Assembly (NCBI RefSeq): GCF_034424315.1
Contig: NZ_CP139972.1
Span: forward strand, 4,526,001-4,590,000
Length of the DNA stretch: 64,000 nucleotides
Reading direction: 5' to 3'
Source of the DNA: Chitinophaga sancti
GTDB lineage: Bacteria; Bacteroidota; Bacteroidia; Chitinophagales; Chitinophagaceae
Below, in pieces: positions 30,219 through 52,537 of the stretch (positions within the stretch are counted from its first letter, which is position 1; the number at the start of each line of letters is the position of its first letter). The translations under genes were made by a program, and so were the position numbers. Under the pieces are notes generated by a model that did not search any database, had not been told where the DNA came from, and saw only the letters and a program-made list of their open reading frames with translations.

Positions 30219-30503
30219 GAACAGCATCGAAAGCATTCATTACCGCCCAAGCGCCCCCATCAACATCTCAGGATAACACGTGCCTTTTACACCCCCCGCA
30301 GGCAGAACAGCATCAAAAACATTCATTCTACCGCCCAAGCGCCCCCATCAACATCTCAGGATAACACGTGCCTTTTACACCCCCCGCAGGCAGAACAGCA
30401 TCAAAAACATTCATTCTACCGCCCAAGCGCCCCCATCAACATCTCAGGATAACACGTGCCTTTTACACCCCCCGCAGGCAGAACAGCATCAAAAACATTC
30501 ATT
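30219..30503. repeat. 88-bp tandem copies of an aldo/keto reductase gene end
   Basis: Three full units (30240-30327, 30328-30415, 30416-30503) plus a partial one follow the reductase stop. Read leftward, each unit ends in codons for DAVLPAGGVKGTCYPEMLMG, ALGR and a stop, which aligns with the NAVMPAGIVSGTRYPEMLMG end of the gene itself. The units are almost identical to each other but differ from the gene at several codons. They are therefore not simple copies of the present gene end, and look more like an amplified tail of a related gene. Confidence 0.9.
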
Positions 30504-31502
30504 CTACCGCCCAAGTGCCCCCATCAACATCTCAGGATAACGTGTGCCTGATACAATCCCCGCAGGCATAACCGCATTTATACTTTGCAATTCATCCTTC
30601 GTCAATTGCAAATCTCCCGCAGCAATATTCTCTTCCAATTTCCTGATTTGCTTTGTACCAGGAATAGCAATAATATTCTCACTCTGCGCGAGGATCCAGG
30701 CTAATGCTAATTGCGCAGGTGTACAACCTTTTTGCGAAGCGATTACTTTTATCTTCTCCACCAACTCAAGATTCTTATAAAAGTTCTCCCCCTGAAAACG
30801 CGGCATGTTCACACGATTATCTTTCAGGTCTTCGGGTGATTTCACCTCACCACTCAGGAAACCTCTGCTCAAAGGAGAGTACGCGACAATACCAATACCA
30901 AGTTCGCGGGCGGTAGGGAGCACTTCTGCTTCAATCTCCCTGCTCCAGAGAGAGTATTCAATTTGTAAAGCTGTAATAGGTGCTACTGCAGCAGCTTTCC
31001 GGAGTGTGGAGGCGGAGGTTTCAGATAAACCAATGTAACGGATAACACCTTTATCCACCATATCTGCTAATGCACCAACAGTATCTTCAATAGGTACATT
31101 AGGATCAACACGACCAGGTGTATAAAGGTCGATATAGTCTGTTTGCAGACGTTGTAAACTATAGAGGATCGCATTCCTTAAATAGTCAGGATGCGCGTTT
31201 ACCGGCCCGAAGGTAAAGCCTTTATTAGCAGCGGGCGCCATGAGCTGGCTTGTTTTTACAGAAAGAAATGCCTTGTCGCGATTCCCTTTAATAGCTTTAC
31301 CGATGAGAGTCTCGTTGTGGCCTGTACGATAGTAATCGGCAGTGTCGAAGAAGTTGTTGCCCAGTTCAAGTGCGCGGTGAATAGTGGCTATAGATTGTTG
31401 TTCATCTGCAATGCCATAGGCACCGGACATACTCATGCATCCAAGTCCGATAGCGGATACGATTGGGCCGTTTGTTCCAAGTTTTCTGTTCATGATGTTC
31501 AT
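30504..31502 (-). CDS. Aldo/keto reductase family oxidoreductase
   Basis: About 332 residues from the ATG at 31502 (MNIMNRKLGTNGPIVSAIGL). An upstream ATG at 31544 is open but adds an unusual hydrophobic lead. The barrel signs are GLGCMSM, FDTADYYRTGHNETLIGKAI (catalytic Asp and Tyr), SVKTSQL (Lys) and the NADPH site near IPGTKQIRKLEENI. The usual QHRVDP histidine site reads YTPGRVDPNVP, so the fourth catalytic residue is replaced, as in some family branches. It is transcribed just after the AraC regulator gene, which probably controls it. It reduces aldehydes or ketones, with the substrate unknown. Confidence 0.88.
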   Translation of the reverse strand: MNIMNRKLGTNGPIVSAIGLGCMSMSGAYGIADEQQSIATIHRALELGNNFFDTADYYRTGHNETLIGKAIKGNRDKAFLSVKTSQLMAPAANKGFTFGPVNAHPDYLRNAILYSLQRLQTDYIDLYTPGRVDPNVPIEDTVGALADMVDKGVIRYIGLSETSASTLRKAAAVAPITALQIEYSLWSREIEAEVLPTARELGIGIVAYSPLSRGFLSGEVKSPEDLKDNRVNMPRFQGENFYKNLELVEKIKVIASQKGCTPAQLALAWILAQSENIIAIPGTKQIRKLEENIAAGDLQLTKDELQSINAVMPAGIVSGTRYPEMLMGALGR

Positions 31503-31550
31503 TTTTACAAATGTCAGCTGCAACAGGAAAAAAGGGCCGGACAAAACGTA

Positions 31551-32402
31551 TTAGTTCCCTGACAAATCCTGCACAAACTCCCCTATCGTCTGTCCCGTCA
31601 CCTTCTTGAACAAGCGTGAAAAATACTCCGGGTCATTGAATCCCAACTCATAAGCCAGCTCTTTAATACTGGACTGCTTATTATAATACAATCTCCGCTT
31701 TGCCTCCAGGATAAGCCGGTTCGTAATAAACTCCTTCGGACTCAAACCTGAATACTGCTTCACCATATTATACAAGCTATTAGGATTCAAAGCGAGTTCT
31801 TCTGCAATCTCAATAATACTGGGATGCTCAGTAAGATTATTTTCTATCAATAATTTAAACCGGATGAATGCAGACAGTCTATCATTTGCAGGCCGTTTTT
31901 CCACCGCGAAATAAGCAGCGTTAATCTCTGTCAACAAACTATTCAGATGCGCCAGGATCAGCTCTGGATCAGTATCCATCCTGCTTAATAAGCCAAGCAA
32001 CATTTCAAAGATAGACTTCAGTCTTGCCGCTGCAGCAGGGCTGAATTGGATCTTTTGATTATTCAGTGGATTAATGAGAAAAGGGTATTGTCTTGGTAAG
32101 AGCGACAGGCTGCTTTCATCAAAACCCAGCTTAAAAAAGTTAGTACCTTTTTTGCCATCGGGTACATGGTGAATCTGGTGCGGAAGTACAAATAACAATT
32201 GATCAGCCGTCACATCAAATTGCTGTAAGTCTATACCATGGCGGGTTGTACCTTCCAAAACAAAGAGCAGGAAATAATACGGTTTACGAAGCAAGGGTGT
32301 ATAATCACCCATCAACGCCGTTTCCAGGCTCCCGAATGTCGGAGAGACAATGCGGATGGGGAGCTTGTTATTTTGTGTATGTTGTTGCAGGAATGAACCC
32401 AT
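31551..32402 (-). CDS. AraC family transcriptional regulator
   Basis: 283 residues. The N-terminal half is a cupin-like sensing domain (YFLLFVLEGTTRHGIDLQQ, LLFVLPHQIHHVPDG). The C-terminal 100 residues hold two helix-turn-helix units with SIIEIAEELALNPNSLYNMV and SIKELAYELGFNDPEYFSRL, then FKKVTGQTIGEF, the classic AraC signature. Its stop lies about 50 bases before the reductase start on the same strand, so it is likely to regulate the reductase gene and itself in response to a small molecule. The start at 32402 follows a short upstream open frame. Confidence 0.9.
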   Translation of the reverse strand: MGSFLQQHTQNNKLPIRIVSPTFGSLETALMGDYTPLLRKPYYFLLFVLEGTTRHGIDLQQFDVTADQLLFVLPHQIHHVPDGKKGTNFFKLGFDESSLSLLPRQYPFLINPLNNQKIQFSPAAAARLKSIFEMLLGLLSRMDTDPELILAHLNSLLTEINAAYFAVEKRPANDRLSAFIRFKLLIENNLTEHPSIIEIAEELALNPNSLYNMVKQYSGLSPKEFITNRLILEAKRRLYYNKQSSIKELAYELGFNDPEYFSRLFKKVTGQTIGEFVQDLSGN

Positions 32403-32820
32403 ATTGTAAATGTAGAGAATAATGCAATACGATCAGGAATAATGCTTTCAACTACTTTATGGCTGGGGTTGATGCTTGAAATTAAATAGCCATAGCTACT
32501 ATCATCTTTGTATAGAATCCCATTGTTCTGTAATACCAATTGCAGATTATTCGAAAAATTATGCAACTGGGGATGTTCATCCGTAAAGCCATCATAACCC
32601 GTTAAATCACTAAAATCAAACACTTCTTGTTTGCCCACCTGTTGCATACTTACCTGGCAGGTTTATTATGCTCCTGAATTATTCTATCTGTATGTTAAGA
32701 CTTTAAACCGATGAAGATGCTGCCTGTTTGGCCATTACCAACACATTTCAGCCAGGCGCTTAGTTAATTCATTTTAATGGAGGATTTATATCACTATTGA
32801 GAGATAAATAACTATTGTCA
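32403..32820. other. Intergenic region with a possible short leader frame
   Basis: A leftward frame from 32647 reads MQQVGKQEVFDFSDLTGYDG and stays open across the AraC start into 32312. Codon choice in its first 80 codons looks plausible, but no family is recognised. It could be a small protein overlapping araC, a relic, or chance. The part 32648-32820 holds nothing clear. Confidence 0.3.
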
Positions 32821-33954
32821 TCAATAGGGTAAAATCAATTCAAACGAACTTATTTCTGAAAAAATCCGTGGTTGATTACCTGGATGTAGTTTACCTTTTA
32901 TCCTTAAATAGGAATCAGCAGTCATGTGAGAAATATCAGCCTTCTGGTACTGTTCTGCATCTAATATTATGCGAGCGCGAATAACCTCGCTATCTTTGTA
33001 TAAATTCAGAATAACCTCTCCGGATCTTTTATTATCACTCCCCATGTCTCCAGAAAGATGTTCAACTGTTGCCATAAAAACATCCTCCAATTTTTGTTCC
33101 TCAGATCTTTTTAATTCTCTTCGAACATCATCTATTCTGGAAAAATAGTCCTTTTGAATCTTTATTTGATTATGAACTGTAAAATTTGCCGGTAATCTCA
33201 CTGATCCTGCCCATGTAAAGTTTACATATAGATCAAAATCTTCATGCTCTTCCTTAAAATTTGTTACAGCCTTGCACAGATTAGAGGAAATTTGAGGATT
33301 GGGTTCACTTTTAATAGTTTCTACTAATGCGTCTAAGGTATCAGCTTGGATTGCTGATACCAGTTTATTTAAACCATTATTGATTACGAGCGTTGTTTGC
33401 CGGATAAATGGAAAATCATCTTCAAAAAGGCGTCCCTGCAACTCCATCGCCCTAACCGGAGCCGAAACCTTGATAACAAAACTTCCAGTTTCAGTATGAC
33501 GAAATTTTGATTTATCAATTAATTCAAGCGCTTCGGATCTCGATAATCTTGGATGATGAATTTGCGGTTTCAGCACCGTACATGCCGCCGAAAGGAACAA
33601 TTCTTTCGCACCATTCAGCGCTGACACGGCATAAGATAATGGAATAAAAGTTTCTTCATTCCTGGTGTCAACAATCCGGAATCTCAGTGTATCATCCTTA
33701 ATTTCCTCTATGGCAGCGACAATATTATTAATCGTTCTTTGCTGAATCTCTGCCAACTTATGTATTACAATATTCACTGCATCAGAATAATCTGGCTGAG
33801 CTGAATCTATTGGAAATACCAATTGCCGACGTGGGTGATGTGGATGATTTAAAACAAATAATCCATCATCAAGCGCTTCAGCTACTTGCAGCCAACCCTG
33901 AGATTTAGCATAATCACGAATATCAGTTGAGCTTATATTTTGAAAAACATTCAT
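32821..33954 (-). CDS. Unrecognised 377-aa protein
   Basis: A soluble protein with no signal peptide or membrane segment. The N-terminus has a short helical module (DIRDYAKSQGWLQVAEAL) and the middle is mixed helix and strand (LVETIKSEPNPQISSNLC, FDLYVNFTWAGSVRLP). The C-terminal about 100 residues look like a small beta barrel (GEVILNLYKDSEVIRARIIL, LRIKGKLHPG). Its start overlaps the stop of a short upstream frame in an ATGA junction (33951-33954), so it is the second gene of a coupled pair. The isolated context and pair structure would suit a defence or toxin module, but no motif proves that. Confidence 0.7.
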   Translation of the reverse strand: MNVFQNISSTDIRDYAKSQGWLQVAEALDDGLFVLNHPHHPRRQLVFPIDSAQPDYSDAVNIVIHKLAEIQQRTINNIVAAIEEIKDDTLRFRIVDTRNEETFIPLSYAVSALNGAKELFLSAACTVLKPQIHHPRLSRSEALELIDKSKFRHTETGSFVIKVSAPVRAMELQGRLFEDDFPFIRQTTLVINNGLNKLVSAIQADTLDALVETIKSEPNPQISSNLCKAVTNFKEEHEDFDLYVNFTWAGSVRLPANFTVHNQIKIQKDYFSRIDDVRRELKRSEEQKLEDVFMATVEHLSGDMGSDNKRSGEVILNLYKDSEVIRARIILDAEQYQKADISHMTADSYLRIKGKLHPGNQPRIFSEISSFELILPY

Positions 33955-34124
33955 TCCGGCAATTGATAAATTAAACTTTCATTCCTGCTTCTTGTAGCCA
34001 ATATTTCTCTTAAACTATTACTATTGAAGATTTGATTTTGAGGAATGTAAATCGTTTGACCACCCTCATTTTCTGATTCAGGAGCGCCCCTCAAACTAAC
34101 CCAATAAGCACACTTTTTTAGCAT
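33951..34124 (-). CDS. Short upstream partner of the 377-aa gene, probably truncated
   Basis: Starting at the ATG at 34124 this gives 57 residues: MLKKCAYWVSLRGAPESENE, then GGQTIYIPQNQIF and LREILATRSRNES, ending LIYQLPE. The same frame is open further upstream to a stop at 34182-34184, adding LCHEFPKHWLNITEEEL, which reads like the inside of a protein. The stop overlaps the next start as ATGA, normal for a real operon. The likely story is a longer first gene cut off at its 5' end. A genuine 57-aa protein is the alternative. The family is unknown. Confidence 0.5.
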   Translation of the reverse strand: MLKKCAYWVSLRGAPESENEGGQTIYIPQNQIFNSNSLREILATRSRNESLIYQLPE

Positions 34125-34296
34125 CAATTCTTCTTCTGTAATATTAAGCCAATGTTTTGGAAATTCATGGCAAAGCAGGGATCATCGCGCTTGGATTCTT
34201 CAAGCTACGCTGGCTGGGCACTGGCATAAAATCAATGGATGCCAGTCACCAGGAAATCGAAATATTACATGGAAAAGCCGAAGATGACGTCTGGTT

Positions 34297-34836
34297 CTAT
34301 TCCACTTTTATCTCCCTGACCGTTTCATTGCCCGGCAAGTCAACTAATACTATTTTCACCGTAGCACTGGGCGGCAGACTAGCTGCTTTATAATACCAAT
34401 CAACCCCATTTCTGCCTAAAGTAGCCTTTCCTCTTTCGAGGATGCTGCCTGCTGCATCTATTACCAGTACATCCACTTCTGCTACCCTGAATTCGTCGTT
34501 TGCAGTCACGATCACAGTCGTGTCTTCAAAACGGATATCCTGCACTTCCGGGGAGTGATAAGCGTCTTTAATAGCCATGTTCCAGGCATTCTGCCCGGGG
34601 CCGGTTTTGGATTGATAATATGCCTTTAAGTCGGGGTCCTGCAGGATGACTTTGGCATAAGCGGCCGCTACCTTCATTTTATAACGGGCTTCCAGCTGTT
34701 TCGTTGTCGGCTTATTGTTTGACGGGCCGCGTTTCTTCGCGATGATGATCTGCCCGTTTCTCTCATAGATCGTGAACTGGTCGCCGAGGCTTCCCCGTAC
34801 GACCTGGAAGAGCACACTGTCTGTTATTAACGCCAT
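34297..34836 (-). CDS. Unrecognised 179-aa protein
   Basis: The N-terminal about 85 residues are basic and helical (GQIIIAKKRGPSNNKPTTKQ, YKMKVAAAYAKVILQDPDL). The second half is a predicted beta sandwich (VQDIRFEDTTVIVTANDEF, RVAEVDVLVIDAAGSILERG, VKIVLVDLPGNETVREI). No signal peptide or catalytic motif is present. It is monocistronic, with a strong hairpin upstream. Similar two-part proteins occur as single genes in this phylum, but no function can be given. Confidence 0.7.
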   Translation of the reverse strand: MALITDSVLFQVVRGSLGDQFTIYERNGQIIIAKKRGPSNNKPTTKQLEARYKMKVAAAYAKVILQDPDLKAYYQSKTGPGQNAWNMAIKDAYHSPEVQDIRFEDTTVIVTANDEFRVAEVDVLVIDAAGSILERGKATLGRNGVDWYYKAASLPPSATVKIVLVDLPGNETVREIKVE

Positions 34837-34939
34837 AAAATTGGTTTTTTGAGGTTACTATATCAATGTAAATATTCAATCCGAATATAGCCTTTCCTTT
34901 ATTCATTTTTGTCACTAATTGAGTATTACTACGTCATTA

Positions 34940-34980
34940 TAAGGTCACCTCAATATCGATTTGATATTGAAGTGACCTTA
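34940..34980. other. Long inverted repeat upstream of the 179-aa gene
   Basis: TAAGGTCACcTCAATATC and GATATTGAaGTGACCTTA pair over 17 positions with one mismatch around a five-base loop. No U-run follows on either strand. It is a possible operator, attenuator or small structured RNA in the gap 34837-35075. Confidence 0.5.
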
Positions 34981-35023
34981 AGCTGTCCTTATAATAACCT
35001 TTTAGCATTATAGATAAACAAAA

Positions 35024-35060: not shown

Positions 35061-35075
35061 TATAGAATGTTAAAA

Positions 35076-35157
35076 TTATATCGTTCCTGTCGTCATTTCC
35101 TTCACCACATAATCCATTATATCATTCCCTTCTTCATCTCCTTCACCGCATAATCCA
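35076..35157 (-). repeat. 41-bp tandem duplication of the GMC gene end
   Basis: Unit B (35117-35157) is the last 13 codons of the gene, DYAVKEMKKGMI plus stop. Unit A (35076-35116), after the stop, spells DYVVKEMTTGTI plus stop. The two units differ at several bases, yet the amino-acid pattern is kept, as in the 30219, 46004 and 52475 cases. Confidence 0.9.
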
Positions 35158-36826
35158 CAGCTCTCGCCGTCAGCGCCATATACGTCAAACTCGGATTCTG
35201 GGTACTGGTCGATGTCATACAGGCACCATCGGTTACAAATACATTCTTCACCAGGTGCATTTGGTTCCATTTATTCAGCAAAGATGTTTTCGGGTCATGC
35301 CCCATTCTCACCCCACCCATTTCATGAATATCCAGGCCCGGTGCCTGTTTGGAATCATGGGTTTTCAGATCTGTAAAACCAGCTTTGGTATACATATCCG
35401 TCATTTGTTCGAAGAAGTCTTTTATCATCTTCTCATCATTATCATCATACCCGATATCAGCATGCAATAATGGAATACCCCATTCATCTTTCTGAGCCTT
35501 ATCCAGGAATAAACGGCTTTGCTCTTTCGGAATCGTTTCTCCCATCATATGCGAACCTACAAACCATGGACCCAGCTCTTTTTTAGAGAGATGATCTTTT
35601 AGCTGTGTACCAAAACCATCATGCTTCGAATACGACGGACGCATGGAATAGAAACCAGCCGCATAGCCACGTAAAAAATCCGTCTCCTGTTTGACGAGGT
35701 TTCTGAATCGCGGGATATAAGCACTGGTCGGGCGTTTTCCATCAGTCGTATAATCGAGTAATCCTTCGTATTTACCGGTAATGACTGCACGATAATTATG
35801 AAATGCAAAATACTTTCCTAACAATCCATTGTCATTACCCAGTCCATTTGGAAAACGATCGGATGTAGAATTCAGCAGGATGATATTTGTATTCACCGCA
35901 GCGGCATTTACAAAGATCACCGGTGCGAAGTATTCAGTGGCTGCATGTGTTTTTGCATCGATTACACGTACACCTGTAGCCTTGCCTTTTGCTGCATCGT
36001 AAATGATAGAATGTACGACGGAATCGGGTTTCAGGGTAAGATGACCGGTCTTCTCCGCCCATGGAATCGTAGAAGCATTGCTGCTGAAATACCCGCCAAA
36101 CGGGCAACCCCGCTGGCACAGATCACGTTTCTGACACTGCACTCTGCCTTGTTGTTTATGGATCTCCTGTGCTTGTGTCACATGTGCACAGCGACCATAA
36201 ATAACGTGCCGGTCTTTATAATTTTTACCAACAAAATCTTTGAAGTATTCCTCTACTTTCGTGAGGTCCATCGGTGGCAGGAATTCGCCATCGGGCAAAC
36301 CGGGTAAGTTATCTTTATTACCTGAGATCCCTGCAAACTTCTCCACATAGCTATACCAGGGGGCAATGTCTTCATAGCGGATAGGCCAGTCAACCGCAAA
36401 ACCATCCCTGGCAGGGCCTTCAAAATCGTAGTTGCTCCACCGTTGCGTCTGCCGGGCCCATAGCAGGGATTTACCGCCTACCTGGTAACCGCGGATCCAG
36501 TCGAAGGGCTTGTCCTGCACATAAGGATGTTCCTTATCTTTTACAAAGAAATGCAGTGCATCTTCCTTGAATGCGTAGCATTTACTCACTACCGGGTTGT
36601 CGTCCTTTTGTTGTTGGGTCAACTGTCCACGATGCGCAAATTCCCATGGCATCAGGTTGGTGGTAGGATAATCTTTAATGTGCTTAACGTCTCTACCTCT
36701 TTCGAGCACTAAAGTCTTCAAGCCTTTTTCCGTGAACTCTTTAGCTGCCCAGCCGCCGCTGATACCCGATCCGATCACGATCGCATCGAAGTTGTGGCTG
36801 GTATCGCCTGTATTTATATTTGGCAT
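35117..36826 (-). CDS. GMC-family oxidoreductase (gluconate/glucoside dehydrogenase-like large subunit)
   Basis: 569 residues. The FAD-binding motif AIVIGSGISGGWAAKEF lies at the N-terminus (about 13-29), with VLERG as the second part. A Cys-rich segment CQKRDLCQRGCPFGG near 230 is typical of the gluconate 2-dehydrogenase group. DIHEMGGVRMGHDP and NPSLTYMALTARAVDYA form the C-terminal flavin and active-site end. It is preceded at five bases by the gene for its small Tat-type subunit, which exports the folded pair. Relatives oxidise sugars or sugar glycosides (for example 3-dehydrogenation) at the periplasmic side. No cytochrome c subunit follows, so the electron acceptor is unknown. Confidence 0.92.
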   Translation of the reverse strand: MPNINTGDTSHNFDAIVIGSGISGGWAAKEFTEKGLKTLVLERGRDVKHIKDYPTTNLMPWEFAHRGQLTQQQKDDNPVVSKCYAFKEDALHFFVKDKEHPYVQDKPFDWIRGYQVGGKSLLWARQTQRWSNYDFEGPARDGFAVDWPIRYEDIAPWYSYVEKFAGISGNKDNLPGLPDGEFLPPMDLTKVEEYFKDFVGKNYKDRHVIYGRCAHVTQAQEIHKQQGRVQCQKRDLCQRGCPFGGYFSSNASTIPWAEKTGHLTLKPDSVVHSIIYDAAKGKATGVRVIDAKTHAATEYFAPVIFVNAAAVNTNIILLNSTSDRFPNGLGNDNGLLGKYFAFHNYRAVITGKYEGLLDYTTDGKRPTSAYIPRFRNLVKQETDFLRGYAAGFYSMRPSYSKHDGFGTQLKDHLSKKELGPWFVGSHMMGETIPKEQSRLFLDKAQKDEWGIPLLHADIGYDDNDEKMIKDFFEQMTDMYTKAGFTDLKTHDSKQAPGLDIHEMGGVRMGHDPKTSLLNKWNQMHLVKNVFVTDGACMTSTSTQNPSLTYMALTARAVDYAVKEMKKGMI

Positions 36827-36831
36827 ACAAT

Positions 36832-42736: not shown

Positions 42737-43987
42737 TTACTTCTTCTTTTTCTTCTTCTTCACTTTTTCCATCTCCTCATTATGCTGATCTAAGAGCAGT
42801 TGCCAGTTATCATTCGGAATATCCTCAGAGAAACTGATCGTCTGCCGATAATCATTCTTATCAATCTTCATCACCGTGATTTCCTTTCCTAAATATTTCT
42901 GGATCTCATCCAGCACCGGCTTCTCCTCATCACTACAAAACGATACGGCCTGTCCTTTCTGCACCCCACGGCCAGTACGCCCTACCCTATGTACATAATT
43001 CTCCGGCACATCCGGCAAATCATAATTCACCACATAATCCACATTCGGAATATCTATCCCTCTCGCATTCACGTCAGTTGTGATCAACAATTTCACCTTC
43101 CCACTCTTAAAATCTTCCATGGCCTCCAGGCGGTTCTCCTGCTCCTTACCACCATGCATCACCAGGGCCGGGATCTCCACCCTCTCCATGGCCGCCTGTA
43201 CACGCTCAGCACGCACCTTTGTTCTCACGAACACCAGGATCTTCCCTTCCGGGAACTCCTTCACCAATCTCTCCAGGAAGAAACGCTTATCATCCATACT
43301 TACAAATGCCACGGCATGCTGTACGTTCTTTGACACCGGATCTTCAGGGGAAATCTGGATCCTGATCGGATTCCTTACCACAGAATAAGCCAGGTCTTTA
43401 ATATCCGTATCAATGGTCGCGGAGAAGAAAAGGGTCTGGTGCCTGCGGCCCATATGTTTTAGTACATCCCTGATATCACGGATGAAACCCAGGTCCAGCA
43501 TATGATCCGCTTCATCCAGGATCAGGGTTTCGGTAAAACTAAGGTCTATAAATCCCCTGCTGATGAGGTCAAACATCCTGCCTGGGGTGGCGATGAGTAC
43601 ATCAACCCCTTTGGCCAGTTTTTCCAGCTGCGGGCCTTCGTCTACGCCACCAAAAAGGCCTAATATATTGAGTTTGGTATACTTGGCAATGGTAACGAAT
43701 ACTTCGGCGATCTGGATGGCCAGTTCACGGGTAGGTACCATTACGACACATCTTACCTCTCCTTTGGTTTTTTTAGGGAGTCTTGAGAGCTTTTGTTGCA
43801 GCAAATGCAGCACCGGGATGGCGAAGGCAGCGGTTTTTCCGGTACCGGTCTGGGCTATCGCCATTACGTCATCCCCCTTCAATATAGATGGGATCGCCTT
43901 AAATTGGATATCTGTCGGGCGTTTGAATCCCAATTCCTCCAGGCTTCTTTTTATCTCCGGGGAAATACGATACTGTTCAAATTTCAT
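42737..43987 (-). CDS. DEAD-box RNA helicase
   Basis: 416 residues from the ATG at 43987 (MKFEQYRISPEIKRSLEEL). All helicase motifs are present: Q motif (GFKRPTDIQ), AQTGTGKT, PTRELAIQ, ATPGR, DEAD in ILDEADHMLDLGF, SAT, ARGID and HRVGRTGR. It unwinds RNA during ribosome assembly or mRNA decay, typical of RhlE/CsdA-type enzymes. A 648-base open extension to 44635 is C-rich repeat sequence and not believed to be coding. The tail is poly-Lys (VKKKKKKK). A one-base shift in this A-rich tract would instead give EEKEEVIVTEKVKQRSPASQ, so a frameshift is possible. TATCTTTG stands four bases before the ATG, so the message may be leaderless. Confidence 0.93.
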   Translation of the reverse strand: MKFEQYRISPEIKRSLEELGFKRPTDIQFKAIPSILKGDDVMAIAQTGTGKTAAFAIPVLHLLQQKLSRLPKKTKGEVRCVVMVPTRELAIQIAEVFVTIAKYTKLNILGLFGGVDEGPQLEKLAKGVDVLIATPGRMFDLISRGFIDLSFTETLILDEADHMLDLGFIRDIRDVLKHMGRRHQTLFFSATIDTDIKDLAYSVVRNPIRIQISPEDPVSKNVQHAVAFVSMDDKRFFLERLVKEFPEGKILVFVRTKVRAERVQAAMERVEIPALVMHGGKEQENRLEAMEDFKSGKVKLLITTDVNARGIDIPNVDYVVNYDLPDVPENYVHRVGRTGRGVQKGQAVSFCSDEEKPVLDEIQKYLGKEITVMKIDKNDYRQTISFSEDIPNDNWQLLLDQHNEEMEKVKKKKKKK

Positions 43988-44022
43988 GTTGCAAAGATAT
44001 GGGATGTAGGGGGAATGTGGGG

Positions 44023-44510
44023 GGGTGGGGGAAGATGGTTTTTTGGGGGAGGGTGTGAGGGGGTGTTTTGGGGGGAAGGCGTTTTCGGGGGGAATTGGAG
44101 GATGATGTTTTTTTGGGGAGGGTGTGATGGGGAAATTGGAGGATGATGTTTTTTGGGGGGGGGGGTGATGGGAGAATTGGAGGAGGATGTTTTTTTGGGA
44201 GGAGAGTGTGAGGGGAGAATTGGAGGAGGATGTTTTTTGGGGTGGGGGTGATGGGGGAGAGTTGGAGGAAGATGTTTTTTGGGGGTGGGTGTGATGGGAG
44301 AGGAGGAGGAGGATGTTTTTTGGGGGAGGGTGTGATGGGGGAATTGGAGGAAGATGTTTTTTTGGAGGAAGGTGTGAGGGGGAATTGGAGGAAGATGTTT
44401 TTTTGGAAGAGGGTGTGATGGGAGAGTTGGAGGAGGATGTTTTTTGGGGGTGGGTGTGAGGGGGAATTGGAGGAAGATGTTTTTTGGGAGGAGAATGTGA
44501 GGGAAAGGAA
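44023..44510. repeat. G-rich minisatellite, about 41-bp units
   Basis: About ten diverged copies of a unit such as GAATTGGAGGAAGATG, TTTTTTGGGGG, GGTGTGATGG, spaced 40-44 bases apart. The + strand is almost free of C. It occupies the space between the helicase start and 44510. Runs of four or more G recur in every unit, so G-quadruplex folding is plausible. Indels between units break any common reading frame. The remaining 44511-44672 is AT-rich promoter DNA for the next gene. Confidence 0.9.
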
Positions 44511-44672
44511 GGAGTAAATATGATTTTAGGAAGGAGGTTTTTGATAAAACGTTTTTGAGTTTTGATTTTAAAAATATCAGAATAATAAGGGTATGTTTTT
44601 ATTTTTTTAATTAAAAACAATCGCCGTAAATTCAATACTGCAAAGGTTTTTAAACTAAAAACATTTTAAATT

Positions 44673-45316: not shown

Positions 45317-46033
45317 TTGGCAAAAGCAAAGGCAAAAATAATCTCCGGCATACCAACACGCTCTCCACTCTCCCGGTTCTTCACCAATCTCCACCCGGTT
45401 AAAAGAATACTGATCGCCCTGCTGTCCTGCGGCCTCGTCTGGCTCTTCATCAAAAATGAATCCATCACTGCCCTACTCAGAATCATGATCCTCTGGGATG
45501 TATTCTCCCTTGTATTCTGCGCCCAATGCCTTTACATCTTCTTCAACCGCACCACCAATGAAATCCGTGCATACGCCAGACAGGAAGATGGCAGTCGCCT
45601 CATGGTATTTGTCCTGATAGTTATTGCCTGCTTTGCAAGCATGCTCATGGTGCTCCTCCTCATGTTATCCACCGAATCAAGAGAAGCCGGCCTGGTATTA
45701 TACCTGCCTGTAGCGGTAGCGGGTATACTTTTATCATGGGTCATGATCCATTGCATGTTTGCAATTCACTACGCCCACATCTATTATGATGATGACGAGG
45801 AAGACAATACCCGTCATATTGGTGGATTAGAATTCCCGCAGGAAAAGCATCCGGATTACCTGGATTTCGCTTATTTCTCTTTTGTGATTGGCATGACCTT
45901 CCAGGTTTCAGACGTGGAGATCAGTAATAAAAAATTAAGAAGACTGGCTTTACTACATGGATTGCTGGCATTTGGAATGAATACCTTTGTGGTGGCATTA
46001 ACGATCAACCTGGTAGCAGGTCTGAAAGGATAA
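45317..46033 (+). CDS. DUF1345 family membrane protein
   Basis: 238 residues with five or six helices (ILIALLSCGLVWLFIK, LMVFVLIVIACFASMLMVLL, LVLYLPVAVAGILLSWVMIH). The family core HCMFAIHYAHIYYDDDEEDN, GGLEFP and YLDFAYFSFVIGMTFQVSDV is intact, so this is a DUF1345 protein. Its function is unknown in the field. No ATG fits the beginning, and the best start is the TTG at 45317 (MAKAKAKIISG). The last codons (INLVAGLKG) are repeated twice downstream of the stop (46004-46148). Convergent with the HTTM gene. Confidence 0.85.
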   Translation: MAKAKAKIISGIPTRSPLSRFFTNLHPVKRILIALLSCGLVWLFIKNESITALLRIMILWDVFSLVFCAQCLYIFFNRTTNEIRAYARQEDGSRLMVFVLIVIACFASMLMVLLLMLSTESREAGLVLYLPVAVAGILLSWVMIHCMFAIHYAHIYYDDDEEDNTRHIGGLEFPQEKHPDYLDFAYFSFVIGMTFQVSDVEISNKKLRRLALLHGLLAFGMNTFVVALTINLVAGLKG

Positions 46034-46148
46034 GGGATTTACTCCAAACTCCATCAACCTGGTGGCCGTCTGGAAGGATAAGGGACTTACTCCAAACTCC
46101 ATCAACCTGGCAGCCCGTCTGAAAGGATAAGGGTTTACTCCAAACTCC
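46004..46148. repeat. 48-49-bp triplication spanning two convergent gene ends
   Basis: Units at 46004-46052, 46053-46100 and 46101-46148 each begin ATCAACCTGG and end ACTCCAAACTCC. Unit 1 carries the end of the DUF1345 gene (INLVAGLKG and stop). Units 2 and 3 repeat it with changes. Unit 3 also carries the end of the leftward HTTM gene (SLE and stop). The whole junction was amplified, then diverged. Confidence 0.9.
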
Positions 46149-47094
46149 AAAATGCCTGCGTTGCCAGCACTTCCGCTCTTCTTAGCATCTTCTTTTCCCT
46201 CAATGGCCGCACTATGCCCCAATACACCTGTTCAATATACTCCCATCCAAACGCCGCTGTACTAAACACGATCATTATCCCTGCAAATAACTGTAATCCC
46301 ATAAAAAACGAAATTCCTACATGCAGCAACACCACTCCCACGTACGCATATACCCTTGTTTTTCTCCACCAGATAAACACAGGATAACCGATTTCAATCA
46401 ACAAAGTACTCCAGCAAATCAACTTCGCCAGCCATGGATAGTCCGCCAACCAGCGCATATCAAATCTTGCAAACTGCCCCTGCATGAATGTTTGCCAGAT
46501 CGCTTCCCCATTCCACCATTGTGCTCCCATTGCCTTTTCCAGGCCGGAAGCTAAGTAGACAATACATAAATGGATCTGCAATACCCTTATTGACAGCGTA
46601 TTCCATTCACTCACACTACTCTCACTATTCTTCCATGTAAATGAATCGCCCACCGGCATCAGTATGCAATAGAACAAAGCAATGTGTAAGAATGTCTCTA
46701 CCCCATAGGCAGCCATAAATCCTGTATTGATAAACATCAGGTGTAAACCCCAGGCCAGTGTAGCGGCTGCTCTTGTTGACATCCCCAATAACAGGAAGAT
46801 TAAACAGACCAGGTATACCGCCATTAATATATACACCATGCTATCGCCGGGTATGCCTATCGCCGTAGCTAAGGGCTGTAGCCAGGATAACTGGGGCATG
46901 AGGGGGGATACGATTCCTTTGCTGAGTGACCAGGGGATTAATCCATTTACGCCGTATAACATTACGACATTGCCCAGGAGCCAACATCCCTGGATTAATC
47001 CAATGAATGCGATGGCGATTCTAAAAAAAGCTAGTGGCTCGCCAGAGCGGGGGGAGAAAAAGAAGCGGTGTAATACACCGGAATAGCTGTTCAT
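46135..47094 (-). CDS. HTTM-like membrane protein (vitamin-K-carboxylase-related)
   Basis: 319 residues. The beginning RFFFSPRSGEPLAFFRIAIAF is the usual HTTM opening. Several helices follow, for example VYILMAVYLVCLIFLLLGM, LCIVYLASGLEKAMGAQWW, WSTLLIEIGYPVFIWW and LLHVGISFFMGLQLF. HTTM proteins share the membrane part of vitamin-K-dependent gamma-carboxylase, but most bacterial members have no known reaction. The gene upstream on the same strand (47614-48093) encodes a small membrane-anchored protein, a pairing often seen with HTTM proteins. The end of the gene lies in the 48-bp triplication. Confidence 0.82.
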   Translation of the reverse strand: MNSYSGVLHRFFFSPRSGEPLAFFRIAIAFIGLIQGCWLLGNVVMLYGVNGLIPWSLSKGIVSPLMPQLSWLQPLATAIGIPGDSMVYILMAVYLVCLIFLLLGMSTRAAATLAWGLHLMFINTGFMAAYGVETFLHIALFYCILMPVGDSFTWKNSESSVSEWNTLSIRVLQIHLCIVYLASGLEKAMGAQWWNGEAIWQTFMQGQFARFDMRWLADYPWLAKLICWSTLLIEIGYPVFIWWRKTRVYAYVGVVLLHVGISFFMGLQLFAGIMIVFSTAAFGWEYIEQVYWGIVRPLREKKMLRRAEVLATQAFWSLE

Positions 47095-47162
47095 AAAAAC
47101 TGTTATTATAGATGAAGGAAATCATCTCCGGTAGGGGGTATTGATTGGCTTAGTAGTAGTTA

Positions 47163-47465
47163 TTGATGCAAGGCTTTAAGTAGGCTATTAATGCAGGACT
47201 TAAAGCAAGCTACTGATGCAAGACTTAAAGCAAGCAACGATGCAAAACTTAAAGTAAGCTACTGATGCAAGACTTAAAGCAAGCCACCGATACAAGACTT
47301 AGAGCAAGTCTACCGATGCAAAACTTAAAGTAAGCTACTGATGCACGACTTAAAGCAAGCTGCTGATGCACGACTTTAAGCAAGTCTACCGATGCAAGGC
47401 TTAAAGCAAGCCACCGATGCAAAACTTAAAGCAAGTCTACCGATGCAAAACTTAAAGCAAGCCAT
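47163..47465. repeat. About 24-bp tandem array
   Basis: About thirteen diverged copies of GATGCAAGACTTAAAGCAAG with a short variable end (CTAC, CCACC or TCTACC). No unique spacers separate the units and no cas genes are present, so it is not a CRISPR array. It fills most of the gap 47095-47613. The rest of that gap is plain AT-rich DNA. Confidence 0.9.
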
Positions 47466-47613
47466 AATAAATAATAGCCATGATGCAAAACCAATCCTCC
47501 TACCGGATATGTTTATTGATTGAAATTATTTTTATCATCTCTCCCAATTACCAGGCATATTCAACAGATGACTGTTATTCCTAAATGTTTCATTAACAAA
47601 TATTCATACCCAT

Positions 47614-48093
47614 TCACTCCCTATTCTTTCTATAATCTTTCACCAAAAACGGCTCCCACTTTGCCTCCACCCCATTCCTAAAATCCTTCATCTCCGGCAC
47701 CAACTTACTCACCACCGTCACCCGCACCATCGTGCCATCGGGCGCCTCCTTCAACACATACGCCGCACAACTCCTCGCCAGCAACGGCTGCGCTTCCTCA
47801 ATACTGAAAAAATTATAAATCGTCTGAATCCTCCTGTTACACTCGCTATTATTACCTTCCAATCTCATTACATGCTGAGATTTTCCATCTGCCACCGTGT
47901 ACAACACCGCAATTTCATTCCCGATATGCGGGGCGAAAAAACTAAAAATATTCCCGGCGCCGGTAAAGTCGCCATAACCTGATAACCAGGTCGTATGCTT
48001 ACTCCATTCTTTGAAATGAGCAGCATGCAAAGCGACTACCAACAAGTGGAAAAGCGCGATGCCCATCCAACAAATATGCTTCCACGTTATCAT
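47614..48093 (-). CDS. Small membrane-anchored protein next to HTTM gene
   Basis: 159 residues. One N-terminal helix (HICWMGIALFHLLVVALHAA) is followed by an extracytoplasmic domain with GDFTGAGNIFSFFAPHIGNE, LYTVADGKSQHVMRLEGNN and a beta-rich end (YVLKEAPDGTMVRVTVVSKL). The same arrangement is found upstream of HTTM proteins in related bacteria, to the extent I recall. It probably works with that protein. No catalytic motif is visible. Confidence 0.65.
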   Translation of the reverse strand: MITWKHICWMGIALFHLLVVALHAAHFKEWSKHTTWLSGYGDFTGAGNIFSFFAPHIGNEIAVLYTVADGKSQHVMRLEGNNSECNRRIQTIYNFFSIEEAQPLLARSCAAYVLKEAPDGTMVRVTVVSKLVPEMKDFRNGVEAKWEPFLVKDYRKNRE

Positions 48094-48135
48094 AAAAAAG
48101 GTTAAAATGAAGCGTGTAAAAAGTTAAAAAAGAGA

Positions 48136-48174
48136 GGCCAGCTGAAAACAGCGTATAAAATTTTACAGCTGGCC
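48136..48174 (-). terminator. Intrinsic terminator
   Basis: GGCCAGCTG and CAGCTGGCC pair around a 21-base loop and are followed on the minus strand by TCTCTTTTTT. It ends transcription from the lipoprotein gene to the right, just before the 47614-48093 gene. Apart from the repeat pair at 48270-48411 the gap 48094-48409 shows nothing else. Confidence 0.75.
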
Positions 48175-48269
48175 CCGGGGTAAGTAGGAATGGGTGGATG
48201 AAAGATCAAAGATCGAAATGGGGTTAATGAATCACCAATCTTCTCCTGTCCTTTCATCTACCATCAACC

Positions 48270-48411
48270 AGACCTTATTTCACAATTACTATTTATGTAT
48301 TGATTATCAACTGGAAATACCTATTTATGAAATAAGTTCTAGAACTCATTTCATCATTACCATTTAAGTATTGATTATCAATCATAAAGGCCTATTTATG
48401 AAATGAGTTCT
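48270..48411. repeat. 71-bp palindrome-ended element, copies 2 and 3 in tandem
   Basis: Copy 2 covers 48270-48340 and copy 3 covers 48341-48411, directly abutting. Copy 3 has perfect 14-bp terminal inverted repeats (AGAACTCATTTCAT and ATGAAATGAGTTCT). Copy 2 carries CTTATTT matched by AAATAAG, so one stem pair changed on both sides. The end of copy 3 supplies two bases of the TAG stop of the lipoprotein gene. Confidence 0.88.
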
Positions 48412-49240
48412 AGTTAATCCCTAATATCGCGGCACCTGCAACTTCTTCTATATTGAGTTTTTCAAACCCTTTATCAAGACTTACAAAATTCGCCCTGATA
48501 TCCCGCAACACAATCGGGTCAAAACATCCAATCATATTCGGGAACTTCCTTCTCAATATATCTTCCCATCTCAAACTGGTATAAATCGTCAGCTTAGCAC
48601 CCGCACTTGCAGGCACCTGGGTAATATCTCCCAATCCATAAAATCCTCTTGTAAAGTAAGGCAGTGCCGTACCCTGTGGCAGTGATAACCTGAACTTTTC
48701 CAGGGGAGCCTTCGCCAACACTTTCGTATCTACTGCATCCGCCTGTAATTTGCTGGCCGCAGTCAGGAAGGTCTTGGTGGCCAATACCTGCTCACTGGCA
48801 GACAATTCAGTAATTGTCAGGTCTGCAAAGGTTTTGCTATCCACTTTCTGTATCAATTCTGCCGCTCTTTTAGCTATATCCAGGTAAGGAATCATGGTAG
48901 GACAGGTCTTGATCCAAATCTTTTTAAACGGCGCTTTGGTGTATCCAATCCTTGCCAGGTACGGAAAAGGAATCGGGGTTTTTCCATCGCCGAATTGGGT
49001 TTCATCGGAAAGACCGCCGTAAGATGCTTTGGTGATGTAGTTATTTGCCGGTAATCCATCGAAAGTGAGCAGATAGGTTTCCGGTTTAAGGTCCTTTAAT
49101 ATGGCATCCATTTCATCACTGCCATCAGCAGCTGTTACGGCTAATTCTGAAGTTGGACGAAGGGAAGCCTGTTCTTTCTTGCAGGAAAACATGGTCAGTA
49201 CAGCTAAGCCAGCTATACCGGCTAAGAGGTTGCGTTTCAT
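48410..49240 (-). CDS. Lipoprotein of unknown function
   Basis: 276 residues from the ATG at 49240 (MKRNLLAGIAGLAVLTMFSC), a lipobox ending FSC with Cys20. An upstream ATG at 49285 is ignored because it would displace the signal peptide. The mature part has an acidic lead, LKPETYLLTFDGLPANNYIT, then helical and beta segments with IKTCPTMIPYLDIAKRAAEL and TIYTSLRWEDILRRKFPNMI. No family was recognised. The stop codon TAG is formed at the junction with a 71-bp repeat, so the original end may have been longer. Confidence 0.7.
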   Translation of the reverse strand: MKRNLLAGIAGLAVLTMFSCKKEQASLRPTSELAVTAADGSDEMDAILKDLKPETYLLTFDGLPANNYITKASYGGLSDETQFGDGKTPIPFPYLARIGYTKAPFKKIWIKTCPTMIPYLDIAKRAAELIQKVDSKTFADLTITELSASEQVLATKTFLTAASKLQADAVDTKVLAKAPLEKFRLSLPQGTALPYFTRGFYGLGDITQVPASAGAKLTIYTSLRWEDILRRKFPNMIGCFDPIVLRDIRANFVSLDKGFEKLNIEEVAGAAILGIN

Positions 49241-49462
49241 TTTTTGGGGTTTGAGGTTTTTAGATAACAATTGTTTACCGCACAAAAGTCATGGAATTAC
49301 CGCTTGCCCACAAGCAGAAAAATACTTGTTTTCACAACGTAGAAATACGCAAATATGGGGTTAACAAGTCAAGGGGTGGGGTGTGATAAATATAGTCCAC
49401 CGGTATTTGTTATGCTAAAATTTTCAATGAGATATGAGTGTTGTGAAATGTTTGAAAAGAAT

Positions 49463-49946
49463 GTGAGCTATGCACTTAGACATAGCCCACGATCCTGTAG
49501 TCATTCCACAACTTTCTTTGATGAATGACGGGTGAGGCTGTTAACAATGGAATACGTCATTCGAAAAATCTTTGAATGGATTGTGAGCTATGTGATTAGA
49601 CATGCCCACGAACCAGGAGTTATACTACAATTACGTTGGATGAAAGGTGAGCTATACCATAAAGTACGGCCCACCATATTATCTATTTATTCGAAAACAG
49701 TTGAAAAGTAAGTTATACCCCACCGGGCATAACTTACTCACATTAGGGGTTCTTACAAACTCTTTGGACGAATGGCAAACTATACCATAAAATATAGCCC
49801 GCCATCTTTATTTTTATTCACTTTAGAACAGATGAAAGGCCAGCTACGCCCGAAGGCATTGCTCACTCAATTTGGGGCAACATCATCTCTCTTGAACAAT
49901 AGATGAAGGGAGCAGGAGAGCTACACCCAAAGGCATAGCACTCCTG
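49463..49946. repeat. Array of seven diverged hairpin units
   Basis: Hairpins at 49463-49490, 49583-49609, 49646-49675, 49707-49738, 49774-49803, 49838-49864 and 49913-49946. A typical unit reads GATGAAAGGTGAGCTATACC, then a short loop and AGTACGGCCCACC. The paired arms differ between units but stay complementary, for example GTGAGCTATG/CATAGCCCAC, AGTAAGTTAT/ATAACTTACT and CAGGAGAGCTA/TAGCACTCCTG. Spacing is 60-118 bases. The array lies in the 775-base gap 49241-50015, and no gene was found there. Confidence 0.75.
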
Positions 49947-50015
49947 TACTATCAACTTTACATCCGTCTTACTTAATTAATAATAACGCAGCGGTCATAT
50001 AGGTTGTAGCCAAAA

Positions 50016-50276
50016 TCACCTGATCCACACAATCTTCCCACCTTTGCTGGACTTATAAGTTTTGGAAGACGCATCATAATAGTACGTACAGGTACCAAAA
50101 TGATCAAACTGACATTCGTAATCATATCCTTCGATACCTGCTTCTACGTAAGCAGTTCCATTCCAGTAATATTGAGTTTCCTCGCGGTGATCCTTTGCGA
50201 AAGAGCTGGCAATAGCGGAACCGGTACCTACTACAACAGCCAGTGTCATTAACGATAGTTTTAAATTTTGATTCAT
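50016..50276 (-). CDS. Small secreted protein, DUF6520-like
   Basis: 86 residues from the ATG at 50276 (MNQNLKLSLMTLAVVVGTGS), a signal peptide likely cleaved after IAS or SFA. The mature part is short with YYWNGTAYVEAG, a Cys pair (YDYECQFDHFGTCTYYYD) and KGGKIVWIR at the end. Small Bacteroidota proteins of this pattern are grouped as DUF6520. Their role is unknown. A disulfide between the two Cys is plausible in the periplasm. Confidence 0.65.
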   Translation of the reverse strand: MNQNLKLSLMTLAVVVGTGSAIASSFAKDHREETQYYWNGTAYVEAGIEGYDYECQFDHFGTCTYYYDASSKTYKSSKGGKIVWIR

Positions 50277-50602
50277 GGGTTTACATTTTGTGAGTGATAG
50301 GGTCAACAAAACTGGGTACGTACTTTTAAATTATGGATGATCAAGGCCGTAAAACAATGAAGCGAAGATATAATAGTCTGCTGCAATACCGCCGCAGTTT
50401 GACACAAGATCTTATTTTAACTTTTCCTGTACCCCTTCTCTGCTAAAACGGACTAATATTGAGCTTTACGTCAAAGCAGCTGCATCCGCCATCCATGTAT
50501 ATTTCAAATTCAATAAGTGTTTTCAATACACCTTAGTTTTAAAAATATTTTACTTTTTAAAAATATCTCATTAGCTTTGCGTCAAATTAACACAAAGACC
50601 CC
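50277..50602. other. Divergent promoter region
   Basis: About 325 bases between the small secreted protein gene (leftward) and the NAD operon (rightward). The right end holds the promoter and direct repeats listed at 50537. Elsewhere nothing was seen. Confidence 0.5.
50537..50579 (+). promoter_or_regulatory. Promoter and candidate operator of the NAD operon
   Basis: TAGCTTTG at 50572-50579 fits the -7 consensus TAnnTTTG, 23 bases before the first ATG. Directly upstream the sequence TTTTAAAAATAT occurs twice (50537-50548 and 50555-50566), 18 bases apart. Such a direct repeat in the promoter suits binding of the NrtR-like regulator encoded by the first gene, which is inferred. Confidence 0.55.
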
Positions 50603-51277
50603 ATGCCATCTTTCAGTAGTTATAAAAACCCATCGCTGGCAGCAGATCTCGTTGTGTTTGGTTATCAACAAGGTACCCTCTCTATCCTGCTCCTAAACAG
50701 GAATACTGAGCCTTTTAAAGATAAATGGGTACTCCCAGGCGCCTTCCTCCTTATGGAAGAACGGCTCCACGATACCTGTGCCCGTGTGCTGAAAACCAAA
50801 CTTGGTATGGATGACCTCTACCTGGAGCAACTCTTTACCTACGACGCCCCTGATCGTGACCCCAGGGGCCGTGCGATCGCTGTTGCTCACTATGCCCTGG
50901 TAAACCCTGCAAAGTTTGCCATTACTGCAGGTACGATGGCGAATGACGTGAAGTGGTTCAATGTGAAGGAGTTACCAGCGCTCGGTTTTGATCATGATAT
51001 CATTGCGGCAGATGCATTGAAACGTTTACAGCATAAAATCCTCCATTATCCTGTAGGTTTCGAATTGCTCAATGATGTCTTTACCATGCCGGAGCTGCAT
51101 GCCCTGTATGAATGTATTCTGGATATCAGTATTGACAGAAGGAATTTTCGACGGAAAATACTGGATGCGGGATATATTATTAGTATAGGGAAGAAGAGGG
51201 AAGGATTGAATAACAGGCATCCGGATCTTTATGAATTTAATAAAGAGTTGAAAAGCATTCATTTGAGTTTTGGCTAG
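50603..51277 (+). CDS. NrtR-like Nudix transcriptional regulator
   Basis: 224 residues. The N-terminal half is a Nudix fold (AADLVVFGYQQGTLSILLLN, DKWVLPGAFLLMEERLHDTC, VLKTKLGMDDLYLEQLFTYD) with the Nudix box changed, as in regulators. The C-terminal half is a winged helix (LLNDVFTMPELHALYECILD, RRNFRRKILDAGYI). NrtR proteins bind ADP-ribose or related NAD products and repress NAD-linked genes. The following four genes all handle NAD-derived groups, which supports local control. Cytoplasmic. First gene of the operon. Confidence 0.88.
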   Translation: MPSFSSYKNPSLAADLVVFGYQQGTLSILLLNRNTEPFKDKWVLPGAFLLMEERLHDTCARVLKTKLGMDDLYLEQLFTYDAPDRDPRGRAIAVAHYALVNPAKFAITAGTMANDVKWFNVKELPALGFDHDIIAADALKRLQHKILHYPVGFELLNDVFTMPELHALYECILDISIDRRNFRRKILDAGYIISIGKKREGLNNRHPDLYEFNKELKSIHLSFG

Positions 51278-51354
51278 GCCCAACTGTTTTCTTCGGAGAA
51301 AAATTCACCTGGCCCCAAACCCCATTTTACAACAGACCCTTTCAAAATTTTATT

Positions 51355-51915
51355 ATGATGACGAACGACAATAATATAATGACATACGACACCAACTGGC
51401 TCATTGCCCAACAGCCAACACCCAAGTTCTGCTTCTTCTGGAAACCTGAGATTTCCGAAGATGGGAGTATCACTGAATCCTGTTTAGGCCAGTGGTGGGT
51501 AGCCCCTTTCACCGTGAATGGAAAAACATACCTCACCGCTGAACACTGGATGATGGCCGGCAAAGCCACCCTCTTTGGCGATACTGAAATAGAGAAAAAA
51601 ATCCTTGCCAGCCCCTCTCCTGCTACAGTGAAAGCATTGGGAAGAAAAGTTGCCAACTTTGATCCTGCTAAGTGGGATGCTGCGAAAAGAGAGATCGTGA
51701 GACAGGGAAATATTTACAAATTCACACAACATCCGGAGCTGAAAGCATTCCTGTTAAGTACAGGGAAGGATGTACTGGTAGAAGCCAGCCCCCTGGACAG
51801 GATTTGGGGGATTGGTTTGTCTGCGACAAATGAAAATGCTGCACATCCTGAAAAGTGGAGGGGCCAGAATCTCCTCGGGTATGCTTTGATGGAAGTGAGA
51901 GATGTGTTAAAGTAA
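51355..51915 (+). CDS. NADAR family protein
   Basis: 186 residues with the NADAR/YbiA-type pattern: CFFWKPE, GQWWVAPFTVNGKTYLTAEH with WMMAGKA (key Glu), KIREIVRQGN-like KREIVRQGNIYKF, then ASPLDRIWGIGL and WRGQNLLGYALMEVRDVL. Enzymes of this fold split N-glycosidic bonds. Some remove ADP-ribose from guanine in nucleic acids and others act on riboflavin intermediates. Here the neighbours make the ADP-ribose reading far more likely. It is 77 bases after the regulator gene and 28 before kptA. The start at 51355 gives MMTNDNNIMTYDTN. Met2 or Met9 are alternatives. Confidence 0.88.
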   Translation: MMTNDNNIMTYDTNWLIAQQPTPKFCFFWKPEISEDGSITESCLGQWWVAPFTVNGKTYLTAEHWMMAGKATLFGDTEIEKKILASPSPATVKALGRKVANFDPAKWDAAKREIVRQGNIYKFTQHPELKAFLLSTGKDVLVEASPLDRIWGIGLSATNENAAHPEKWRGQNLLGYALMEVRDVLK

Positions 51916-51943
51916 TGAGTGGTATACTCAAAACCTAATTTAA

Positions 51944-52474
51944 ATGAATCAAAAAGAAACATCAAAATTCCTCAGCCTGATCCTCCGCCACCAACCGGAA
52001 CTCATCGGACTGAAACTCGATACCAACGGCTGGGCGGATGTAGACACCCTACTCGCCCTGGCCGCACGCCGTAAACGTATCACCAAAGCAGAACTCGAAA
52101 CCATCGTGGCTGAAAGTGACAAACAACGCTTCGCCTTCAACGAAGATCGTACTAAAATCAGGGCCAACCAGGGGCATTCCATTCATGTAGACCTGGAACT
52201 CCCCGTCACCACACCTCCCGAGTTCCTCTTTCATGGTACCACCGGCGCCTTTGTATCTGACATTCTAAAAACAGGTATTCAAAAAATGAGCCGCCAATAT
52301 GTACACCTCAGCGTTGACAAATCGACTGCTACCAAAGTAGGGAGTCGCAGAGGAGTTCCCGTCATCCTTACGATTCGTAGTGGTGATATGTACAGAGATG
52401 GTATTCCATTTTTTGTATCTGCCAATGGTGTGTGGCTCACTGATCATGTGCCGGCTAAATACATTTCACAGTGA
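51944..52474 (+). CDS. kptA: RNA 2'-phosphotransferase Tpt1/KptA
   Basis: 176 residues. The family order is complete: SKFLSLILRHQPELIGLKLD with the first Arg-His site, GWADVDTLL, RIRANQGHSI-like TKIRANQGHSI (His), FLFHGTTGAF, YVHLSVDKSTATKVGSRRG (Arg site) and NGVWLTDHVPAKYI. KptA/Tpt1 moves an internal RNA 2'-phosphate to NAD+, and related enzymes can ADP-ribosylate nucleic-acid ends. Bacteria lack the fungal-type tRNA ligation that makes 2'-phosphates, so the substrate here is open. Its last 16 codons recur as a diverged copy just after the stop (52475-52537). Confidence 0.92.
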   Translation: MNQKETSKFLSLILRHQPELIGLKLDTNGWADVDTLLALAARRKRITKAELETIVAESDKQRFAFNEDRTKIRANQGHSIHVDLELPVTTPPEFLFHGTTGAFVSDILKTGIQKMSRQYVHLSVDKSTATKVGSRRGVPVILTIRSGDMYRDGIPFFVSANGVWLTDHVPAKYISQ

Positions 52475-52537
52475 TAACCGGGGTAAAATGAGGGCATTAT
52501 CGCTGACTATGTACCGGCTAAATCCAATTTACAATGA
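52475..52537 (+). repeat. Diverged copy of the kptA 3' end
   Basis: After the kptA stop, a segment in the same frame spells NEGIIADYVPAKSNLQ and a TGA, which aligns with the gene end NGVWLTDHVPAKYISQ. The copy is 63 bases (21 codons) downstream and about 22 percent different over its best 36 bases. Its TGA overlaps the ATG of the next gene as ATGA, as expected if it was once the true end of kptA. Confidence 0.8.

Follow-up and report, generated by a model that had tools for sequence, protein, structure and literature searches.

The window analysed here is a 64,000-nucleotide stretch (bases 4526001-4590000) of the 8.42-Mb single-contig genome of Chitinophaga sancti (G000), in which four genes are followed by copies of their own 3' ends. 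These are an aldo/keto reductase (AKR) gene (30504..31544, minus strand; PF00248, E 2.1e-78), a GMC oxidoreductase gene (35117..36826, minus strand; PF05199 and PF00732), a DUF1345 gene (45317..46033, plus strand; PF07077) and kptA, which specifies RNA 2'-phosphotransferase (51944..52474, plus strand; PF01885). We refer to a downstream copy of a gene's own 3' end as an echo, scored by local alignment of the gene tail against the downstream DNA and called at a score of at least 34. The four genes score 103 (AKR), 52 (GMC), 45 (DUF1345) and 36 (kptA). By comparison, 2070 mismatched pairs of tails and downstream DNA from the window, a pool which contains the four echo-bearing tails themselves, scored at most 33 (99.9th percentile 28), and the maxima from 500 shuffles of each downstream sequence were 28, 26, 25 and 27, respectively. 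None of the 45 gene starts in the window reached a score of 26. The preliminary description of this DNA, which reported one to three copies of the gene's own 3' end after each of these four genes, was right in that the copies are real and exceed chance under both nulls. A further hit, that of open reading frame (ORF) 30138-30452, is spurious, this ORF being located inside the AKR array; it was dropped, leaving 4 of 44 gene ends at the threshold or above.

The copies at AKR, GMC and DUF1345 stand head to tail at constant spacing according to Tandem Repeats Finder (TRF); at kptA the repeat finder gives only a 38-bp match at a spacing of 63 bp, which TRF does not detect. The AKR stop codon is crossed by 4.1 copies of an 88-bp unit (30219..30577, minus strand; TRF score 627, 95% matches; repeat family D4). 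The gene end constitutes one copy, and the DNA beyond the stop holds three complete echoes plus a partial copy. These echoes are mutually 100% identical in a 161-nt comparison, the copy including the gene end being 94% identical, and between the first echo and the gene there are 10 differences in 75 sites. Since the echoes are identical to one another yet diverged from the gene, either amplification took place after an echo had already drifted, or homogenisation has made the echoes alike. Repeated duplication with gene conversion had been put forward as one explanation of the copies: the duplication is borne out, while gene conversion could apply to no copies other than the mutually identical AKR echoes, for which recent amplification is the alternative. 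Three congeneric genomes (G031, G046 and G014) were used for comparison; the AKR genes of G014 and G046 do not carry the window's unit, and G031 has no AKR at the corresponding place. The GMC stop lies in a 41-bp tandem duplication of two copies (35075..35157, minus strand; TRF score 124), with the echo at 35076-35116. By eye, this echo is absent from G031, G046 and G014, each of which has a single tail.

The DUF1345 gene is convergent with a gene which we call HTTM after the earlier naming (46135..47094, minus strand); the latter is an ORF whose protein has no Pfam match at E 0.001. Three copies of a 48-bp unit form a tandem array at their junction (46004..46149; TRF score 225), and the sequence of the unit holds both convergent 3' ends, so that an intact copy remains for each gene. 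The HTTM gene end scores 30 as the partner within this unit. In G031 the DUF1345 end is single and has no array, and G014 and G046 have arrays other than that of the window. The copies had been described as following the stop codon; the echoes are real, but the AKR and DUF1345 units also take in sequence from beyond the stop, i.e. they are tandem units that span it.

At kptA the window has 63 extra bases before the next gene, which specifies an ADP-ribosylglycohydrolase (52534..53475, plus strand; PF03747). The echo within them is 38 bp long (52500..52537, plus strand), is 79% identical to the gene end at a spacing of 63 bp, and overlaps the start codon of the next gene with its last bases. 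The nearest named relatives of this kptA are those of Chitinophaga silvisoli (L022; 93% amino-acid identity) and [Flexibacter] sp. ATCC 35208 (L023; 90%), and the values for G031, G046 and G014 are 93, 89 and 89%. The last three genomes and L023 have one kptA tail, the TGA of which overlaps the ATG of the next gene (ATGA); in the window the CAATGA junction is kept by the echo and not by the gene end. A 50-bp duplication of equal size and score is found in two other kptA loci, L027:3550-3651 and L110:1378-1479, perhaps from one genome; in L027 it starts about 20 bases past the kptA stop. All in all, the echoes are ordinary tandem duplications located at gene ends.

It had been argued that neutral drift would destroy the amino-acid match between a gene end and its copy, and this expectation fails. 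Taking kptA, GMC and AKR together, gene and echo differ at 25 sites, distributed 8, 9 and 8 over codon positions 1, 2 and 3. When polarised against the relatives, 13 of these are changes on the echo side, where the relatives match the gene (1 synonymous, 12 nonsynonymous), 9 are changes on the gene side, where the relatives match the echo (7 synonymous, 2 nonsynonymous), and 3 are undecided. Fisher's exact test for the two sides gives P 0.0015, from few sites which are not fully independent. The gene is constrained and the echo drifts free. In a simple simulation of drift at the observed numbers of changes, with assumed indel rates, the joint probability of keeping the terminal stop and acquiring neither an inner stop nor an indel was 0.06-0.51, so neither selection on the echo nor replacement of the gene by donor DNA is needed for the frame and stop to persist.

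Such a replacement, in which a homologous segment from a related strain would have displaced the gene while the resident tail stayed in place, had been offered as another origin of the copies. The echo does have the relatives' base at 3 of 9 (kptA), 3 of 6 (GMC) and 3 of 10 (AKR) differing sites, and at kptA it is the echo, not the gene end, which occupies the relatives' junction; the same pattern is, however, predicted by tandem duplication. Most changes on the gene side are synonymous, and in 8 of the 9 cases all sampled relatives carry the echo base, which leaves no donor in the sample, although one outside it is possible. The relatives have a single tail, and identity to them is ordinary, kptA being 88.7% identical to that of G031 over the gene body and 86.0% over the last 150 nt. 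Moreover, replacement would leave unexplained both the identical multiple units at AKR and the two-ended unit at DUF1345/HTTM. We regard it as unsupported and very improbable.

Scarcely more probable is that selection keeps the echo as a coding or regulatory element, for instance one that couples kptA to the next gene. While the kptA echo retains the stop/start overlap with that gene, the bases concerned are conserved because they are the next gene's own start codon. The excess of nonsynonymous over synonymous changes on the echo side rejects a selected coding sequence, and the echoes of kptA and GMC are absent from all three relatives.

Our preferred reading, to which we assign a probability of about 0.88, is that the echoes are the spare copies of short tandem duplications and represent the coding-overlapping members of a regionally dense turnover of arrays. 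Each would begin as a tandem duplication of 41-88 bp, its two breakpoints being located within the 3' end of a gene and at, or beyond, the stop. Because translation would end in the first copy the gene would be left intact, and selection would therefore tolerate the duplication; the downstream copies would then evolve unconstrained and at times amplify again, as may have happened at AKR. Replication may generate such duplications by polymerase slippage or through short homologies, and selection would act as a filter retaining units that include the stop. In broader terms the process would be the birth and turnover of noncoding arrays with units of about 20-140 bp, several-fold denser here in four Chitinophaga genomes.

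Outside the window, G000 was sampled in 39 background stretches (780 kb, 535 gene ends) and in 13 neighbouring ones (256 kb, 195 gene ends); each of the two sets gave two 3' echoes of at least 34, as against the 4 of 44 in the window. For 5' echoes the corresponding counts are 1 of 535, 2 of 195 and 0 of 45. The contrast of 4/44 with 4/730 sampled elsewhere in G000 has P 0.0005, a value inflated by the choice of the window for this very feature. Background frequencies of 3' echoes in the other genomes are 2/298 (G046), 2/290 (G014), 10/209 (G031), 1/140 (G054) and 0/142 (G057); nine of the ten in G031 come from two stretches of serial short ORFs, the source also of all 8 of its 5' hits. Thus, five of the six genomes sampled have echoes elsewhere, and the process is not confined to the window. 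The suggestion of a genome-wide process is not supported at the window's rate in G000. The syntenic regions of the relatives have echoes of at least 34 at 2 of 46 (G046), 2 of 46 (G014) and 2 of 48 (G031) gene ends, some of these being short, possibly spurious ORFs. Judged against shuffles, the echo of one G031 gene end (179 aa) is clear (42, shuffle maximum 24) and that of another (159 aa) is weak (35, shuffle maximum 32). As the excess of echoes is clear only for the window, the regional claim rests on the arrays.

Noncoding arrays were counted at a TRF score of at least 100 and a period of at least 18, and arrays within ORFs with a period divisible by 3 were excluded. The window contains 8 in 64 kb, and the syntenic regions contain 5 (G046), 9 (G014) and 13 (G031) in 60 kb each. 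Background counts are 11 in 1036 kb (G000), 5 in 400 kb (G046), 7 in 400 kb (G014) and 11 in 294 kb (G031), which corresponds to region/background ratios of 11.8, 6.7, 8.6 and 5.8, respectively, with P values of 5.5e-6 to 0.0054, those of the window itself being inflated since it was chosen for its repeats. Pooled over the four genomes, the region has 35 arrays in 244 kb and the sampled background 34 in 2130 kb. When only noncoding DNA is considered, the densities are 4.0-8.5 arrays per 10 kb in the region and 0.5-1.7 in the background. No arrays were found in the 200 kb sampled from each of G054 and G057, and the surroundings of kptA had 4 arrays in 187 kb from 42 Chitinophaga loci (some representing one genome twice) and 2 in 404 kb from 67 other loci. 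By orientation of the spacer, the numbers of arrays per kb are 1.14 (convergent), 1.01 (co-directional) and 0.35 (divergent), based on 6, 14 and 2 arrays in spacers which are partly non-independent.

Individual spacers were compared between the window, G031, G046 and G014 at a TRF score of at least 60. Arrays are present in all four genomes in the spacers at 47094-47614 and 58059-58532, and in three of the four in the spacer at 48093-48410 and at the DUF1345/HTTM junction. The first of these spacers, which in the window holds a 25/76-bp array (47165..47461; TRF), has conserved flanks, and by eye there is no evident relationship among the units of the window, of G031 and of the G046/G014 pair; the best local alignments between lineages stop before the window's array. 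In the second a 49-bp array lies downstream of gene 55828-58059 (58129..58243; TRF). The third contains a 71-bp duplication (48270..48413; TRF score 197) which reaches the stop of gene 48410-49285, and G031 and G014 have arrays in the same spacer. By eye, the second 71-bp unit at 48270-48411 is bounded by a perfect 14-bp inverted repeat, which has two mismatches in the first unit. Comparison of the two genomes G046 and G014 revealed shared spacers with arrays of changed length.

Two further arrays of the window occupy spacers that are without an array in the three relatives. One is a 29/87-bp array just downstream of gene 54985-55431 (55447..55654; TRF score 290). The other is a 41/124-bp array upstream of a DEAD-box helicase gene (44087..44500; TRF score 583), across which the helicase ORF (42737-44635) stays open in its upstream part in a proline-rich frame. 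Since the relatives have no array in this spacer, the true start of the helicase is, judging from the sequence, probably an ATG near 43990, an estimated position.

Several observations weigh against our reading. Genes were taken as the longest ORFs, and the genomes were sampled in stretches rather than whole. The kptA repeat match covers only 38 of the 63 bp; by eye, we read the remaining bases of the insert as the diverged part of the unit. Among the polarised sites of kptA there is one, synonymous and on the gene side, which is ambiguous in that G031 carries the gene's base. The candidate AKR echo of G046 is marginal (25, shuffle maximum 24), and descent as an echo is unsupported both for it and for the DUF1345 arrays of G046 (20, shuffle maximum 27) and G014 (24, shuffle maximum 24). 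The relatives' regions show no clear excess of echoes. As to the arrays, G046 and G014 are close and share some of them, and three background stretches of G031 and one of G014, with 3 arrays per 20 kb, are as dense as much of the region. Together with the selection of the window for its repeats, these dense spots could be taken to mean that there is no special hotspot, the clustering reflecting the choice of window and several regions being equally dense. We consider this unlikely, though less so than replacement or selection. The syntenic regions of the relatives were not picked for repeats, yet have 5.8-8.6 times the sampled background, and the excess holds per kb of noncoding DNA as well. 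Furthermore, three of four tested background stretches of G000 are largely syntenic in G031, G046 and G014 (79-94% identity in the listed matches), the fourth matching, at the cut-off used, G046 alone, and the three hold none of the 8 background arrays; poor conservation does not, therefore, account for the emptiness of these stretches.

The tandem duplications may reflect a heritable mutational hotspot, tens of kb in extent and at a distance of about 0.17-0.3 Mb from dnaA, where short duplications would arise several times more commonly and the same spacers would repeatedly gain unrelated arrays in separate species; we advance this tentatively, as less likely than not. In G000, G046 and G014 this distance is that between the region and the best DnaA match. 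Skew and coding strand of the sampled stretches were too irregular to locate the origin. A higher substitution rate was considered as the cause and gave no clear signal, the fourfold-site divergence of the hot region (0.50 to G014, 0.42 to G031 and 0.51 to G046) being within or near the background values of 0.34-0.54, from 1 to 8 genes each.

Some other features were recorded. An intergenic element of about 60-110 bp (L017:15017-15100), REP-like in appearance, is dispersed in G014 and G046, where dozens of matches were found, some of them in tandem rows, e.g. at G014:C1:4946792-4947158. In 139 stretches compared it gave 24 hits, located in 16 of them; the window and the syntenic regions of the relatives had no hit. 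The left end of the window is adjoined by a stretch (G000:C1:4386001-4526000; L160-L165 and L150, with 4 kb of it unsampled) of G+C content 0.33-0.37, the other sampled stretches having 0.40-0.48; it is possibly an acquired island. Within the window, 15405-17711 specifies a protein of 768 aa that contains an eCIS_core domain (PF13699), and four alpha-L-rhamnosidase-type proteins are specified at 8830-13706, 18063-20705 and 25032-27605.

The echoes are clean, polarised examples of tandem duplications surviving at gene ends, in which a unit that carries the stop spares the gene. The array density common to the four genomes is the part worth following: if it holds in whole-genome counts, the region would provide a natural system for studying how the rate of bacterial tandem duplication is set locally, with the same spacers comparable in four genomes. 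A small literature search, which included excerpts of PMC5179023, found no description of gene-end echoes in Chitinophaga.

Mycobacterial interspersed repetitive units (MIRUs) are a dispersed family, and differ in this from the kptA echo, which is a copy of kptA's own end. There is a likeness in that short units lie between two co-directional genes, as at kptA; those between senX3 and regX3 are of 53-77 bp, according to an excerpt of PMC4213456. In lake Planctomycetes intergenic tandem repeats have been linked to noncoding deletions, polymerase slippage being cited (PMC9426551); the intergenic tandem arrangement is alike, and gene-end echoes or a regional hotspot are not mentioned in the excerpted parts of that paper. 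The closing comparison is with bacterial minisatellite-type variable tandem repeats (reviewed by Zhou, Aertsen and Michiels 2014, as cited in an excerpt of PMC9426551), which share with the arrays described here noncoding head-to-tail units of tens of bp that differ between relatives; here, by contrast, some units enter coding 3' ends, and the arrays are dense in one stretch of four genomes.

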